Origin: Phascolarctobacterium sp.
GTDB taxonomy: Bacteria; Bacillota; Negativicutes; Acidaminococcales; Acidaminococcaceae
Reading direction: 5' to 3'
Assembly (NCBI GenBank): GCA_017623055.1
Contig: JAGAPX010000015.1
Coordinates: forward strand, 1 to 49,398
Length of the DNA: 49,398 bases
The position numbers were made by a program, and so were the translations under genes. Every line of letters starts with the position of its first letter. The stretch's first letter is position 1. Below the pieces are notes generated by a model that saw only the letters and a list, made by a program, of their open reading frames with translations, was not told where the DNA came from and did no database searches. Below, piece after piece: positions 4,389 through 30,388 of this stretch.

Positions 4389-4829
4389 TTATGCTTCCAA
4401 GCCTTTGATGAAGTCAGCTGCAAGGAGTACGCCTTTTTCAGTAGTCGGAGCGCATTTGTCATGGGGTTCAGTGGGTTGGAATTTGCCACCACGGATATCG
4501 TAGCATTTTTGAGAGCCATAAGCTTCTTCAAATTTTGCAGCGAAGTCTTTGGTAACTTCGTTCAGCTTAGGTCTATCCCAGCCTTTAGCAGCGCCGTAAA
4601 TGCCAAGGAACATCAACGCGCCTTTGTACAGACCACATTGCATACGGTAGTCGCGGTGTTCCATGATACCGTTTAATGCGTCAAGAACTTGTTGGTCAAG
4701 GGGAAGCTTGAACAGCTCGCTCATGCAGTAGAGCATGGTCATGCCACAGCTAAAGGTTTTGCCCATAAAAAGTTCGTCAGAACGTTTTTTCAAGAATTCA
4801 ATTTCTTCTGCGGTTAAATAATTTGCCAT
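4389..4829 (-). CDS. C_GCAxxG_C_C family redox protein (variant)
   Basis: 146 residues. The start is the ATG at 4829, preceded on its own strand by GGAGTG; a GTG nine bases upstream coincides with the end of the neighbouring gene. The layout fits the family named after its cysteine pattern: FSCGMTMLYC near residue 28, QCGLYKGALMFLGIYG near residue 68 (the GCAxxG element, here CGLYKG), KCYDI near residue 110 and HDKCAPTTEKG near residue 125. These small proteins are thought to bind metal or act in redox reactions; none has a firm role. It lies 5 bp downstream of the metallo-hydrolase gene and is probably in the same transcript. Confidence 0.75.
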   Translation of the reverse strand: MANYLTAEEIEFLKKRSDELFMGKTFSCGMTMLYCMSELFKLPLDQQVLDALNGIMEHRDYRMQCGLYKGALMFLGIYGAAKGWDRPKLNEVTKDFAAKFEEAYGSQKCYDIRGGKFQPTEPHDKCAPTTEKGVLLAADFIKGLEA

Positions 4830-4834
4830 TGGTA

Positions 4835-5506
4835 TCACTCCAATTCAATAGTTTCGCCGGGTTTTACAACAAGCACTTTGCTGGAAGTGGTTGCTTCAAC
4901 ATCAGCTTTGTATGCTTCAACATCTTGGGCGATGGGCGGCCAAGTGTTGTAGTGAACGGGGATAACGTATTTTGCGCCAAGGAACTTAGCTGCGAGGGCA
5001 GCGTCTTTGGGATCCATAGTGAAGTTGCCGCCGATGGGAAGAATTGCGTAATCGAAAGCGTCCAATTGGGGCAGCAGTTGCATATCGCTAAAGAGAGCGG
5101 TGTCGCCAGCGAAATAGAACTTGGTGTCGTAGAAGTCAACTACGAAACCGCAAGCGTGACCACCGGGAATACCACTGCCGTGGAAAGCAAGGGTCAAACG
5201 AACTTTGCCGAAGGGGAATTTATAGGTGCCACCCAAATGCATTGCGTGTGCTTTGCAACCGTTTTCTTCTGCCAGGTAGCAGATTTCTGCGGTGGAGATG
5301 ATGGTTGCGTCGTTAGCTTTAGCAATTTCAAAAGCATTACCGATATGGTCGAAGTGAGCGTGGCTTACAAAAATGTAATCTACTTTAATGTCTTTGGCTT
5401 CCAAGCCTTCCGGGTTGCCGTCAAGGAACGGGTCAAAGATAATGGTAGAATTATTTTTTTCAATGGTAAAGCAGGCGTGGTTAATAAAATGATATTTAGC
5501 AGTCAT
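4835..5506 (-). CDS. Metal-dependent hydrolase, UPF0173/UlaG-like metallo-beta-lactamase fold
   Basis: 223 residues. The start is the ATG at 5506 behind AAGGAG; a GTG three codons further upstream overlaps that site. Metal ligands are seen in order: HACF near residue 10, VSHAHFDHIGNA (HxHxDH) near residues 49-60, GHACG, FAGDTALF and VIPVHYNTWP. This matches the UPF0173 (YtkL) family of soluble Zn or Mn hydrolases whose substrates are unknown. Two overlapping TATAAT-type hexamers on the minus strand at about 5539-5551 may supply its promoter, although no clear -35 is seen. Confidence 0.9.
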   Translation of the reverse strand: MTAKYHFINHACFTIEKNNSTIIFDPFLDGNPEGLEAKDIKVDYIFVSHAHFDHIGNAFEIAKANDATIISTAEICYLAEENGCKAHAMHLGGTYKFPFGKVRLTLAFHGSGIPGGHACGFVVDFYDTKFYFAGDTALFSDMQLLPQLDAFDYAILPIGGNFTMDPKDAALAAKFLGAKYVIPVHYNTWPPIAQDVEAYKADVEATTSSKVLVVKPGETIELE

Positions 5507-6748: not shown

Positions 6749-6763
6749 TTTGAGGTGATAGAT

Positions 6764-7228
6764 ATGCATATCGTTCTGTTTGAACCTGAAATTCCCGGTA
6801 ACACCGGTAACATTGCCCGCCTATGTGCGGCGACTGGTTGCCATCTGCATTTGGTGCGTCCCTTGGGATTTTCTGTAGAAGATAAATATTTGAAACGTGC
6901 TGGCTTGGACTATTGGCACTTGGTTGACATTCATTATTACGACAGCATTCACGAAGTGCTGGAAAAATTCAAGGACAATCCTAAATATTTGTTGACTACT
7001 AAAGGTCACAAATCCTATAGCGACGTTAGCTACGCTGCGGACAGCGTGCTGATTTTTGGCAAGGAAACCGCAGGCCTGCCTGCTTGGATGCACGAAGAGT
7101 ACGCAGAAGGTTGTGTGCGTATCCCTATGATTAGCGAGGCACGCTCCTTGAACTTGTCCAACGCTGTTGCCATCGTTGCTTACGAAGCGTTGCGTCAACA
7201 AGAAAATTTTGCAGGCTTAACTGTTTAA
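6764..7228 (+). CDS. trmL: tRNA (cytidine/uridine-34-2'-O)-methyltransferase TrmL
   Basis: 154 residues, typical for a minimal SPOUT methyltransferase. The ATG at 6764 follows GAGGTG; a GTG at 6755 is in frame but lies inside that ribosome site. SPOUT motifs are present: EIPGNTGNIARLCAATG (residues 8-24), LIFGKETAGLP near residue 105 and IPMISEARSLNLSNAVAIVAYEALRQ at the C-terminal trefoil knot. TrmL methylates the 2'-OH of the wobble nucleotide in tRNA-Leu isoacceptors. A tRNA-Leu(TAA) gene, a likely substrate, is in this window at 30300. Confidence 0.95.
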   Translation: MHIVLFEPEIPGNTGNIARLCAATGCHLHLVRPLGFSVEDKYLKRAGLDYWHLVDIHYYDSIHEVLEKFKDNPKYLLTTKGHKSYSDVSYAADSVLIFGKETAGLPAWMHEEYAEGCVRIPMISEARSLNLSNAVAIVAYEALRQQENFAGLTV

Positions 7229-7240
7229 AAGAGGTACATC

Positions 7241-7597
7241 ATGATTATCATTAAAGAGTTTGATTTTGACGCTGCTCATTATTTGCCTGCGTACAATGGC
7301 AAGTGCGAGCATTTGCATGGTCATACCTACAAGCTGGTGGTAAAGGTGGAAGGCACGCCTGACCACGAAGGTATGGTTATAGATTTTATTAAACTGAAAA
7401 ATTTGGTTAAGGAGGAAGTACTGGTGCATCTTGACCACGCTTGCCTCAACGACGTGCTGCCTGTTCCTTCCGCAGAAAATATTTCCGTGTGGGTGTGGAA
7501 CAAATTGGAAGCACTGCTGAAAACTGACCGTTACCATTTATATGAAGTAGAAGTTTGGGAAACACGTACCAGTGGCTGCGTGTATAGAGGTGACTGA
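7241..7597 (+). CDS. 6-pyruvoyl/6-carboxy-tetrahydropterin synthase (PTPS/QueD family), possibly dual-function
   Basis: 118 residues, a tunnel-fold COG0720 enzyme acting on 7,8-dihydroneopterin triphosphate. Zinc ligands are His13 (FDAAH) and His26/His28 (HGH). The active-site stretch reads Cys22-Glu23-His-Leu-HGH. QueD enzymes use the Cys four residues before HGH; folate-type PTPS-III enzymes use a Glu three residues before it, and this protein has both. The rest of the proton-relay set, Asp65-His66 and Glu107, is present. It overlaps folE2 by one base and is followed by folP and folK, with no folB in the run, so it may supply 6-hydroxymethyl-dihydropterin for folate as well as, or instead of, the queuosine precursor. 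Automatic annotation would call it QueD. Confidence 0.9.
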   Translation: MIIIKEFDFDAAHYLPAYNGKCEHLHGHTYKLVVKVEGTPDHEGMVIDFIKLKNLVKEEVLVHLDHACLNDVLPVPSAENISVWVWNKLEALLKTDRYHLYEVEVWETRTSGCVYRGD

Positions 7598-8364
7598 TGA
7601 AGGACGTACAAGGTGAAAAAGATTTACGTTGCGTGCCTTTGAAACACGTTGGCATTAAAGATTTGCGTTGGCCCATCGAACTGCGCGATAAAACCAAGGG
7701 AACCCAGCACACCGTTGCCAAAGTAACTTTGGCAGTGGATTTGCCCCACGATATGCGCGGTACCCATATGAGTCGCTTTGTAGAATGCTTGCAAACTTTG
7801 GGGCCTGTTGGCTTGCACGAAATCGAAAACATTTTAGATACTTTGAAGGAACGCTTGCAGGCTGAAAAGGCTTTGCTCCAATTGGAGTTCCCTTACTTTA
7901 TTACCAAGGTTGCTCCCGTTAGCGGACAAACTGCACCTATGGATATTGACTGCATCTACACAGCAGAAAAGGGTGCAGAATTAAAATGGAAGATTTGCGC
8001 AGAGATTCCTGTGCAAACCTTATGCCCCTGCTCTAAAGAGATTAGCTCCTATGGCGCTCATAACCAAAGGGCATTTGCTAAGATTGAGATTGCTGCCAGC
8101 GATATGGTTTGGATTGAAGAACTCGTTGACATTGCTGACGCAGGTGCAAGCTCCCCAGTGTATGGCTTGTTGAAACGTCCTGATGAAAAATTCGTGACAG
8201 AGATGGCTTACGATAATCCTCGTTTCGTAGAGGACGCAGTACGTGAAATTGCCCTACGTTTGGAAGAAGATAAACGCATCACTTGGTACCGCTGTGAAGT
8301 GGAAAGCGTGGAGAGCATTCACAACCACAACGCTTTTGCAGTGGTAGAAAAAGGCTGGAAGTGA
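7597..8364 (+). CDS. folE2: GTP cyclohydrolase FolE2 (type IB)
   Basis: 255 residues, the normal FolE2 length. It converts GTP to 7,8-dihydroneopterin triphosphate, the first step of folate and queuosine synthesis. Diagnostic features are VPLKHVGIKDLRWPI at the N-terminus, RGTHMSRFVE, the CPCSKEIS segment with the active-site Cys at about residue 147, and the C-terminal ESIHNHNAFA. The ATG overlaps the preceding stop as TGATG, which implies translational coupling. FolE2 uses a range of metals, unlike strictly Zn-dependent FolE. Confidence 0.95.
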   Translation: MKDVQGEKDLRCVPLKHVGIKDLRWPIELRDKTKGTQHTVAKVTLAVDLPHDMRGTHMSRFVECLQTLGPVGLHEIENILDTLKERLQAEKALLQLEFPYFITKVAPVSGQTAPMDIDCIYTAEKGAELKWKICAEIPVQTLCPCSKEISSYGAHNQRAFAKIEIAASDMVWIEELVDIADAGASSPVYGLLKRPDEKFVTEMAYDNPRFVEDAVREIALRLEEDKRITWYRCEVESVESIHNHNAFAVVEKGWK

Positions 8365-8368
8365 AAGC

Positions 8369-9559
8369 ATGTTATTGAAAGTAAATAAGGAAATGCTTGC
8401 TGACGCTATGGAAAGTATTGGCGTCCACAAGGCAAGCCTTCCTATTTTTGCCAATAAAAACCAAATATTGCCTTTGAAATTATTACAGGTGCGCACTCCT
8501 GCGGCGAACATCATCAAGCAGGAAATGTTGGCGGCTGGCGGTGACGCTGCTGTTCCTACGGGTTGCGTGTTGAATAAGGACAAATATTCCGACGTACTGC
8601 TGCTTGGCACTCGCAAGCATTACAATCTGCTTTTGAAAAAGCTGGAGCTGATGCCTTACTTTGGTATGGATAAGGTTAAGGCGGAGCTGAAAGCAGTATT
8701 AAATGAAGAAAAGTTACAGACCGTTCTTGCTGACGGTAGGGTACTGAACTATGATAAGGTGCTGATTATGGGCATCTTGAACATTACACCTGATTCTTTT
8801 TACGAAAATTCTCGTACTGCTATTGAAGAAGTGGTGGCGAAAGCTGGGCAAATGCTTGCTGACGGAGCAGACATTCTTGATATTGGTGGTGAGTCCACTC
8901 GTCCGGGAAGTGAAGCTGTTGCAGCAGAAGAAGAGCAGGCGAGAGTGTTGCCTGTTATCGAAGCCTTGCGCAAGGCTTATCCAGATGCTGTTCTTTCCAT
9001 TGACACCTATCGTGCTTCCACCGCAAGGCTTGCCATCGAAGCAGGTGCAGATATTATCAATGACATCAGTGCCATGGAAGCAGATGCTGAAATGATTGAC
9101 GTTGTATGTGAAACAAAAGCGCCCATTATTTTGATGCACATGCGTGGCACTCCCAAGGATATGCAAAACCAATGCGAATATAAAAACGTGGTAGAAGAAG
9201 TTGCTGTTTACTTAGCGGAGCGTGCTGAACTCCTGCGTGAACGAGGCGTTGGAGCTGACAAGATTATCCTCGATCCGGGGATTGGCTTTGCCAAGAATGC
9301 AGAGCAAAACTTGAAGTTGATGCGTGACCTTCACGCTCTTACAAGCTTTGGCTACCCGGTGCTTCTTGCTACTTCTCGCAAAGGAACCATTGGCAAGGTG
9401 CTTGGTGACCTACCTGCGGAAGAACGCTTGGAGGGAACCATTGCAACCAGCTGTCAAGCAGTTTACGCAGGAGCAAATATGGTACGCGTTCACGACGTTA
9501 AGGAAAATTTACGTGCGGTGCGTATGCTGGAGGCGATTTTATGTCCAGAGCGTATGTAG
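8369..9559 (+). CDS. folP: Dihydropteroate synthase with N-terminal extension
   Basis: 396 residues against about 270-285 for a classic FolP. The DHPS TIM barrel starts near residue 130: MGILNITPDSFYENSR, DGADILDIGGESTRPG, AGADIINDISAME, ILMHMRGTP, IILDPGIGFAK, LLATSRKGTIG and the final VRVHDVKE are all present, so the pterin and pABA sites look intact. Residues 1-128 form an extra domain with no recognised motif. The gene begins 4 bp after folE2 and its end overlaps folK by 19 bp, which argues for translational coupling along the folate run. Confidence 0.95.
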   Translation: MLLKVNKEMLADAMESIGVHKASLPIFANKNQILPLKLLQVRTPAANIIKQEMLAAGGDAAVPTGCVLNKDKYSDVLLLGTRKHYNLLLKKLELMPYFGMDKVKAELKAVLNEEKLQTVLADGRVLNYDKVLIMGILNITPDSFYENSRTAIEEVVAKAGQMLADGADILDIGGESTRPGSEAVAAEEEQARVLPVIEALRKAYPDAVLSIDTYRASTARLAIEAGADIINDISAMEADAEMIDVVCETKAPIILMHMRGTPKDMQNQCEYKNVVEEVAVYLAERAELLRERGVGADKIILDPGIGFAKNAEQNLKLMRDLHALTSFGYPVLLATSRKGTIGKVLGDLPAEERLEGTIATSCQAVYAGANMVRVHDVKENLRAVRMLEAILCPERM

Positions 9560-10002
9560 CACTTGGCAGTAATCTTGGAGATAGGGAAGAAAACCTGCGT
9601 ACTGCTTTTAAGCATCTGCAGGAAAATGGAGTAGACGTTATCAAAACTTCTACCTTTATAGAAACAGAACCCTACGGCGTGACGGACCAACCCGGCTTTG
9701 TCAATGCAGTGTGCCAGGTTGAAACAGAGCTTGCGCCCTTGGAACTGCTGCGCTTGTTTTTGAGCATTGAGCAGGAAATGGGGAGAGTACGCCTGCGCCG
9801 TTGGGGCGAGCGTAATATTGACCTTGATTTACTGCTGTACGAAGATGCGGTGCTGGAAAGCGAGGAGCTGACCTTGCCCCATCCCGATATGCAGAATAGG
9901 GACTTCGTGCTCATCCCCTTTGCAGAGATTGCGGGAGAGGTAGTGCATCCTGTTATCGGAAAAACTATTAAACTATTGAAAGAAGAATTACTATGCAAAT
10001 AA
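9541..10002 (+). CDS. folK: 2-amino-4-hydroxy-6-hydroxymethyldihydropteridine pyrophosphokinase
   Basis: 153 residues. HPPK motifs are VALGSNLGDREENL at residues 6-19, TEPYGVTDQPGFVNAVCQVET, EMGRVRLRRWGERNIDLDLLLY (the catalytic loop and Mg-binding DLD) and LPHPDMQNRDFVLIPFAEIA. It moves pyrophosphate from ATP to 6-hydroxymethyl-dihydropterin, giving the substrate for FolP. It starts inside folP and its last 10 bp overlap pepT. Confidence 0.97.
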   Translation: MSRAYVALGSNLGDREENLRTAFKHLQENGVDVIKTSTFIETEPYGVTDQPGFVNAVCQVETELAPLELLRLFLSIEQEMGRVRLRRWGERNIDLDLLLYEDAVLESEELTLPHPDMQNRDFVLIPFAEIAGEVVHPVIGKTIKLLKEELLCK

Positions 10003-11213
10003 ATAAAAGCGCTCTTTATGAGCGCTTTAAATCTTACGTAAATTTTGAAACTACTTCTGACGGCAAAGCGACTTGCTTCCCGTCTACGGCAAAGCAGCTT
10101 GACTTGGCACGTTATCTTGTTGACGAACTCAAAGCTCTTGGCTTGAGCGAAGTGGAAATGACGGAGCATGGTTACGTGTTGGCAACACTGCCTGCTAATA
10201 GGTCAGAAGCTTTGTCTGTAATTGGTCTTATTGCTCATATGGACACCAGCGACGAAGCAAGCGGTGCTAATGTGCAAGTTCAGTTGCACCAAGGCTACGA
10301 TGGCAGGAATCTTGTGTTGAGTGAAGACAATGTACTGAAAACAAAGGACTTTCCTGAAATCTTGAACTATGTTGGTCAAGATATCATTACCTCTGATGGA
10401 ACTACTTTGCTTGGCGCAGACGACAAGGCTGGTATTTGCGCCATCGTTTCTGCCTGCGAGTACCTGCTTGCTCACAATGAAGTGAAGCATGGTAAGGTAC
10501 GCATCTGCTTTACTCCCGACGAAGAAGTTGGTCGTGGTACGGAGTACTTCCCTTTGGAAAGATTCGGTGCTGATTTTGCCTATACCGTTGACGGTGGCGA
10601 AATAGGGGAGTTGAACTACGAAACCTTTAACGCGTGCAACGCTATCATAATTTTTAATGGTGTTTCCGTACATCCGGGAAGCGCGAAAAATAAAATGCGT
10701 AATGCAGTGAGCCTTGCTGCCGAATGGCAAATGGCTTTGCCCGCAGGTGAACGCCCTGAATATACGGAAGGCTACGAAGGCTTCTATCATACTGTGCGCA
10801 TTAACGGTGGCACTGACCGTGTAGAGATTGATATGATTTTGCGTGACCACAATAAAGCTTTGCTTGCAAAGCGTAAGCAAGTGGTGCTTGATTTAGCAGG
10901 CTTTATGAACACTAAGTATGGTGTTGGAACTGTGGAGTGCAAGCTTACTGACTGCTACAGTAACATGAAGGAATATATTCTGCCCAAGTACGAGGTGGTT
11001 GAGCGCGCGGAACAGGCAATGCGTAAGGCGAATGTGCTTCCGAAAATTGTTCCCGTGCGTGGCGGTACGGACGGTGCGCGTCTTTCTGAAATGGGTTTGC
11101 CCTGTCCCAACATTTTTGCAGGGGGACACAACTTCCACGGACGCTTTGAGTATTTGCCCTTGCAATCTTTGATTAAAGCTACAGAAGTTGTTATTAACTT
11201 GGTTCAAAAATAA
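9993..11213 (+). CDS. pepT: Peptidase T (tripeptide aminopeptidase, M20B)
   Basis: 406 residues, the usual PepT length. Zinc ligands and catalytic residues are visible: LIAHMDTSDE near residue 78, GADDKAGICAI near residue 140, CFTPDEEVGRGTEYF near residue 172, and GGHNFHGRFEYLP at the C-terminus. It removes N-terminal residues from tripeptides in the cytosol. The ATG at 9993 lies inside folK and no other start fits. A strong hairpin (10006-10028) lies inside the first codons and may affect its expression. It has no metabolic link with the folate genes it is joined to. Confidence 0.95.
   Translation: MQINKSALYERFKSYVNFETTSDGKATCFPSTAKQLDLARYLVDELKALGLSEVEMTEHGYVLATLPANRSEALSVIGLIAHMDTSDEASGANVQVQLHQGYDGRNLVLSEDNVLKTKDFPEILNYVGQDIITSDGTTLLGADDKAGICAIVSACEYLLAHNEVKHGKVRICFTPDEEVGRGTEYFPLERFGADFAYTVDGGEIGELNYETFNACNAIIIFNGVSVHPGSAKNKMRNAVSLAAEWQMALPAGERPEYTEGYEGFYHTVRINGGTDRVEIDMILRDHNKALLAKRKQVVLDLAGFMNTKYGVGTVECKLTDCYSNMKEYILPKYEVVERAEQAMRKANVLPKIVPVRGGTDGARLSEMGLPCPNIFAGGHNFHGRFEYLPLQSLIKATEVVINLVQK
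10006..10028 (+). other. Strong hairpin inside the start of pepT
   Basis: A perfect 9-bp stem AAAGCGCTC / GAGCGCTTT with a 5-base loop covers codons 5-12 of pepT, just past the folK stop. It resembles a terminator or attenuator stem but has only a short T run after it. Confidence 0.5.
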
Positions 11214-11216
11214 AAG

Positions 11217-11252
11217 TAGAGCTCAGAAGAAAAATCTTCTGAGCTCTTTTTC
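11217..11252 (+). terminator. Rho-independent terminator after pepT
   Basis: Stem AGAGCTCAGAAGA / TCTTCTGAGCTCT with an A4 loop, followed by a T run. It ends the trmL-fol-pepT run and also lies just beyond the convergent small gene at 11258. Confidence 0.92.
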
Positions 11253-29966: not shown

Positions 29967-30043
29967 GGCCCGGTGGTTCAGTTGGTTAGAATGCCGCCCT
30001 GTCACGGCGGAGGTCGAGGGTTCGAGTCCCTTCCGGGTCGCCA
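29967..30043 (+). tRNA. tRNA-Asp (GTC)
   Basis: 77 nt including encoded CCA. The acceptor stem GGCCCGG pairs with CCGGGTC (one G-T pair), the discriminator is G, the anticodon stem-loop is CCGCC-CTGTCAC-GGCGG with anticodon GTC, and the T arm contains GGTTCGAGTCC. Confidence 0.97.
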
Positions 30044-30049
30044 AACTAT

Positions 30050-30125
30050 GCCTCGGTAGCTCAGTTGGTAGAGCAAGGGACTGAAAATCCCTGTGTCCAC
30101 AGTTCGATTCTGTGCTGAGGCACCA
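30050..30125 (+). tRNA. tRNA-Phe (GAA)
   Basis: 76 nt with CCA. Acceptor GCCTCGG pairs with CTGAGGC, the anticodon loop CTGAAAA sits between GGGA and TCCC, anticodon GAA, and the T loop is TTCGATT. Confidence 0.97.
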
Positions 30126-30129
30126 TTTA

Positions 30130-30205
<76 letters not shown>

Positions 30206-30210
30206 ATTAA

Positions 30211-30284
30211 GGCGACATAGCCAAGCGGTAAGGCAGAGGTCTGCAAAACCTTTATCCCCGGTTCGATTCCGGGTGTCGCCTCCA
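30211..30284 (+). tRNA. tRNA-Cys (GCA)
   Basis: 74 nt with CCA. Acceptor GGCGACA pairs with TGTCGCC, anticodon GCA in the loop CTGCAAA, T loop TTCGATT. Confidence 0.97.
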
Positions 30285-30299
30285 TATTTTGTTTTGTCT

Positions 30300-30388
30300 G
30301 CCGCGGTGGCGGAACTGGCAGACGCAAGGGACTTAAAATCCCTCGGGTAGTGATACCCGTACCGGTTCGATTCCGGTCCGCGGCACCA
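30300..30388 (+). tRNA. tRNA-Leu (TAA)
   Basis: 89 nt with CCA, a class II tRNA with a long variable arm (CGGGTAGTGATACCCG). Acceptor GCCGCGG pairs with CCGCGGC. The anticodon loop CTTAAAA between GGGA and TCCC gives TAA. Its wobble base is a probable target of TrmL (6764). Confidence 0.97.

Follow-up and report, generated by a model that had tools for sequence, protein, structure and literature searches.

The window (the whole stretch of DNA that was analysed, 49,398 nucleotides from a Phascolarctobacterium sp. genome that is 98.3% complete in 46 contigs) contains an open frame at 7241–7597 on the + strand, which was translated into a 118-residue member of the COG0720/PTPS family (131.3 bits against Pfam PTPS). 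The gene lies in a tightly packed run, all on the + strand, in the order trmL-PTPS-folE2-folP-folK-pepT, and the features of the locus are as follows:

6755..7228, + strand: trmL (NCBIfam TrmL), upstream neighbour, ending 12 bases before the PTPS start
7231..7234, + strand: GAGG, ribosome-binding-like, ahead of the PTPS start codon (sequence match only)
7241..7597, + strand: COG0720/PTPS gene, PTPS-III type with Glu and Cys, proposed FolB replacement
7304..7324, + strand: active-site stretch C22 E23 H24 L25 H26 G27 H28 (CExxHGH)
7597..8364, + strand: folE2, GTP cyclohydrolase (NCBIfam 276.6 bits, cut-off 215)
8369..9559, + strand: folP, dihydropteroate synthase, extended at its N-terminus by about 130 residues (NCBIfam 336 bits, cut-off 162.6)
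9541..10002, + strand: folK, 6-hydroxymethyl-dihydropterin pyrophosphokinase (NCBIfam 152 bits, cut-off 54.1)
9993..11213, + strand: pepT, end gene of the run (NCBIfam)
11218–11247: terminator-like hairpin after pepT

The PTPS and folE2 frames share one base (TGATG), and beyond folE2 the genes of the run are joined by a 4-base gap or by overlaps. NCBIfam scores above the cut-offs bore out the order PTPS, folE2, folP, folK that had been given in the sequence-only reading, a folate gene neighbourhood of the kind expected around a PTPS-III enzyme; FolC is also present in the genome. Sequences around the operon that resemble promoters or terminators scored no further than about two standard deviations from what shuffled sequence gave. 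Riboswitch control was ruled out for the preQ1 and THF classes, as no match exceeded the Rfam gathering score in the window or in eight que or tgt loci. The N-terminal 130 or so residues of FolP (window 8369–8764), ahead of the DHPS domain, had no Pfam match at a threshold as loose as E ≤ 10; FolP frames in family loci are of similar length and clostridial FolP is shorter. The closest named relatives (98–99% identity) belong to Phascolarctobacterium MAGs that come from the gut of roe deer, and it is from their names that the family is taken to be Acidaminococcaceae. Elsewhere in the window, a C_GCAxxG_C_C putative redox-active protein (Pfam 48.4 bits) is encoded at 4389–4838 on the − strand, and five tRNA genes are clustered at 29967–30385.

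The active site of the PTPS protein reads K21-C22-E23-H24-L25-H26-G27-H28, in which Cys falls where QueD has it (CxxxHGH) and Glu where PTPS-III enzymes have theirs (ExxHGH), so that the translation agrees with the earlier claim of both residues in one CExxHGH site. C22, H26, G27 and H28 were invariant in a 10-row alignment of CExxHGH and QueD copies, and chance occurrence of the motif was ruled out by its presence in 52/52 family (Acidaminococcaceae) genomes with any COG0720 match. By sequence the enzyme therefore has the Glu of PTPS-III proteins, the full CExxHGH motif of PTPS-I/III hybrids and the CxxxHGH of QueD (PTPS-I), and it scores 100.3 bits against the NCBIfam QueD model TIGR03367 (cut-off 89.25). 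Because this model accepts the protein, automatic annotation is likely to misname it QueD, and the caution that such a label would hide the folate step was well placed. The gene is the only COG0720 gene of the genome; a second copy, for which a search had been suggested, was not found there.

Pribat et al. reportedly showed in 2009 that an E. coli folB mutant is complemented by bacterial proteins that have both Glu and Cys. The E. coli QueD structures (PDB 4ntm and 3qn0, titled 6-carboxy-5,6,7,8-tetrahydropterin synthase, which we take to be E. coli QueD) represent the queuosine synthesis enzyme of the same fold family by sequence (about 69 bits against the window protein in phmmer), with the Cys and HGH positions shared but with KCGRLHGH and hence no Glu after the Cys. 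For PTPS-III, the accessible part of PMC5615194 describes a Glu 'replacing or accompanying' the Cys and an enzyme that substitutes for FolB, and replacement of FolB by PTPS-III is also stated in the accessible part of PMC3223725; FolB substitution of this type is a known solution in other bacteria. The window enzyme resembles these bacterial PTPS-III proteins in its Glu at ExxHGH (here accompanying Cys), in the lack of folB and in its folate neighbourhood, and differs in nothing essential in sequence or context. According to the available text of PMC2229834, the PTPS of Plasmodium falciparum carries Glu at this position (Glu38), makes 6-hydroxymethyl-dihydropterin and needs Glu38 to do so, while with the E38C change it acts like any ordinary PTPS. 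In that protein (PDB 1y13) the Glu is equally far from HGH (FRETLH-GH compared with KCEHLHGH), but Arg stands for Cys beside it and the eukaryotic protein is longer. In the titles and abstract openings covered, to which subscription papers mostly did not belong, no treatment was found for the Acidaminococcaceae.

The earlier suggestion that folB is missing was followed up with FolB (PF02152), which gave no match in the genome at E ≤ 10, so that no folB gene elsewhere in it speaks against a bypass. FolB was found in 183/250 genomes of a sample of the class, in 0/58 genomes of the family and in 0/4 other genomes of the order; of the 67 FolB-negative genomes, 20 were listed by name and the others follow from setting aside the 183 listed positives, and one family genome (G250) was sampled neither for FolB nor for QueC, so that those counts cover 58 genomes of the family rather than 59. 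An assembly gap as the cause was ruled out, the absence being common to all 58 family genomes tested. COG0720 motifs were then read in 136 of the genomes in which PTPS was matched, comprising every FolB-negative one (59) and 77/166 FolB-positive ones, the latter picked because they scored best or had several copies and hence not a random draw. Left out of this reading were the third copy of G026, which is truncated, and one short match of G105. A CExxHGH copy was present in 57/59 FolB-negative genomes versus 2/77 FolB-positive genomes. The Fisher value for this association (2.8e-33) ignores kinship and is not usable as a probability; most of the 57 genomes are kin, and independent events are few. 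The two FolB-negative genomes without such a copy are incomplete (G071, 85%; G123, 65%). Within the family, COG0720 matches were obtained in 52/59 genomes, with exactly one CExxHGH copy each, and the remaining 7/59, two of them more than 90% complete, gave no COG0720 match. One of the two CExxHGH copies in FolB-positive genomes (L226, in G175) sits in a QueD branch; the other (L227, in G200, of another family) is of the folate type and groups with a family member, perhaps as a result of transfer. Two genomes of another family (f12) are also FolB-negative with CExxHGH copies, but these form a loose group with the copies of the order, and a common origin is possible.

In a quick tree of 99 sequences (120 columns, few for the purpose, with the motif columns kept), the family CExxHGH copies and clostridial folate-operon copies (Caloramator, Thermobrachium and Anaerosalibacter among them) formed a 42-row branch that is CExxHGH throughout (SH-aLRT 98), and seven family QueDs fell outside it, so that the window enzyme is placed apart from the QueDs of its family. 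Among the nearest 80 named loci, folP or folK lies within 4 kb in 67, which are free of que genes, and 12 have neither sort of gene, two of which (L090 and L139) have folE2; these loci were gathered by peptide patterns from the window protein, one of them spanning the motif, and CExxHGH in 80/80 is thus expected and no evidence. In one locus from an Altiarchaeota MAG (L128, 5965–9532), queC, queE and a folE2-like gene adjoin a CExxHGH gene, whose product may be a genuine enzyme of the queuosine or archaeosine side with this motif. With this locus and the CExxHGH QueD of FolB-positive G175, the motif alone does not decide function.

As FolB is absent clade-wide and CExxHGH copies track FolB-negative genomes, a FolB bypass is well supported by genomics, and the earlier proposal that this enzyme replaces FolB is very probably correct. 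The explanation in which we have high confidence is a PTPS-III type enzyme with Glu and Cys that makes 6-hydroxymethyl-7,8-dihydropterin in place of FolB and that, in this organism, very probably serves folate only. FolE2, encoded next door, would supply dihydroneopterin triphosphate, which the PTPS enzyme would turn directly into 6-hydroxymethyl-7,8-dihydropterin with the help of Glu23; FolK and FolP would then use this product, and FolB would not be needed. The Plasmodium and bacterial precedents make this conversion the most likely reaction.

The sequence-only reading had further raised the prospect of service to both queuosine and folate, which the queuosine genes did not bear out for this organism. 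Tgt is present in the genome, with QueA and QueH nearby. QueF was not found in the genome and is absent in 4/4 genomes of the genus; QueC was not found in the genome and is also absent in three genus mates (weak QueC-like matches in the genome were rejected as MnmA and GuaA). QueE was not found in the genome by a search with TIGR03963 at E ≤ 1e-20, a model and threshold that missed a divergent QueE in G195. The window enzyme thus neither co-occurs nor clusters with QueE and QueC as a QueD should, and the de novo pathway (QueE, QueC, QueF) in which a hybrid would take part was not found in this genome. A set of QueA, QueG or QueH plus Tgt is tabulated in the accessible part of PMC6593275 as needing external queuosine or preQ1, and with the de novo genes missing, queuosine would here be made from an imported precursor, the PTPS enzyme serving folate only; it is the missing de novo genes that make the folate-only role very probable.

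QueE (TIGR03963) was found in 11/59 family genomes, and 11/11 of these also have an ordinary QueD without Glu that adjoins QueE by coordinates, as in L166, where it is the first gene of a queD-queE-folE-queC-queF run. In G195 the divergent QueE stands beside an ordinary QueD and QueC, which brings the separate QueD to 12/12 QueE genomes; visible de novo queuosine synthesis therefore has its own QueD to do it, and the relatives with QueE lend the hint of dual function no support. A third kind of COG0720 paralogue was also seen, of about 160–215 residues with GEAxYLHGH, which lacks both Cys and Glu where they normally stand, in nine family genomes (L177–L185) and five others (L234, L235, L236, L237 and L238); one adjoins queF (G231), and the start of L234 is zinc-ribbon-like (CxxC).

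A true dual-function PTPS-I/III enzyme, acting in folate and queuosine synthesis in this organism, is accordingly unlikely. It would fit the intact catalytic-type Cys and the same CExxHGH motif of the hybrids, which according to the accessible part of PMC5041015 (from its reference 55) work in both pathways; such hybrids are defined by that double work, however, whereas the window genome lacks QueC, QueF and a detectable QueE, the three genus mates lack QueC and QueF, and QueE genomes of the family keep a separate QueD. It would also fit another 24/58 family genomes with a strong QueC (E ≤ 2.4e-40), no QueE seen and no second QueD-type copy; these may import a precursor that enters before the QueC step or hold a missed type of QueE as in G195, and in genera with QueC but without QueE seen the enzyme may have a dual function. 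The neighbours of QueC in the three loci read (L188, L190 and L192) are QueT and QueF, with no QueE nearby. An ordinary QueD with an incidental Glu beside the Cys, folate being made otherwise or imported, would agree with the equivalog match above the NCBIfam cut-off and with the CExxHGH copy inside a QueD branch in G175, but is very improbable given the lack of QueC and QueF as partners, the place of the gene in a folate operon, the tie of CExxHGH copies to FolB absence, the tree position apart from the QueDs of the family and the retention of folE2, folP, folK and folC.

If the enzyme replaces FolB, the role of its Cys can be considered separately. In QueC-less family genomes of nine genera, Cys was kept in 20/20 CExxHGH copies, with the codon varying (TGC in 12, TGT in 8); Glu was kept in the same 20/20 copies, also with both of its codons used, and several nearby residues vary. 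Cys kept while its codon varies suggests, at the level of sequence, that the residue is under selection without de novo queuosine synthesis, although some genera may have lost QueC only recently and several of the genomes are incomplete MAGs, which weakens the test. That the enzyme makes 6-hydroxymethyl-dihydropterin and that the Cys is a neutral leftover of a QueD ancestor is a reading to which we give a near-even chance: the Plasmodium enzyme works with Arg beside Glu (FRETLH; accessible part of PMC2229834), and Cys would thus be generally dispensable for the reaction, but the retention in nine genera with two codons points to selection. We put forward more tentatively that the Cys of PTPS-III enzymes with Glu and Cys may be a working part of the folate reaction, neither a leftover nor a sign of queuosine synthesis, and that the branch may be a folate-specialised class misread as bifunctional. 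Since the QueC-less relatives keep the Cys, CExxHGH alone is no proof of dual function and should not be taken as such. The family offers a natural test set for the role of the Cys, as its members have this enzyme both alongside queuosine genes and in their absence.

For a common gut family, an enzyme has thus been identified that very probably fills the gap in folate synthesis. The analysis adds that the family is free of FolB throughout the sample, that queuosine and folate have separate genes wherever QueE is seen, and that the motif does not by itself amount to dual function. Under an automatic QueD label, a working folate step would go unseen, and a queuosine step would be suggested of which this genome could make no use.
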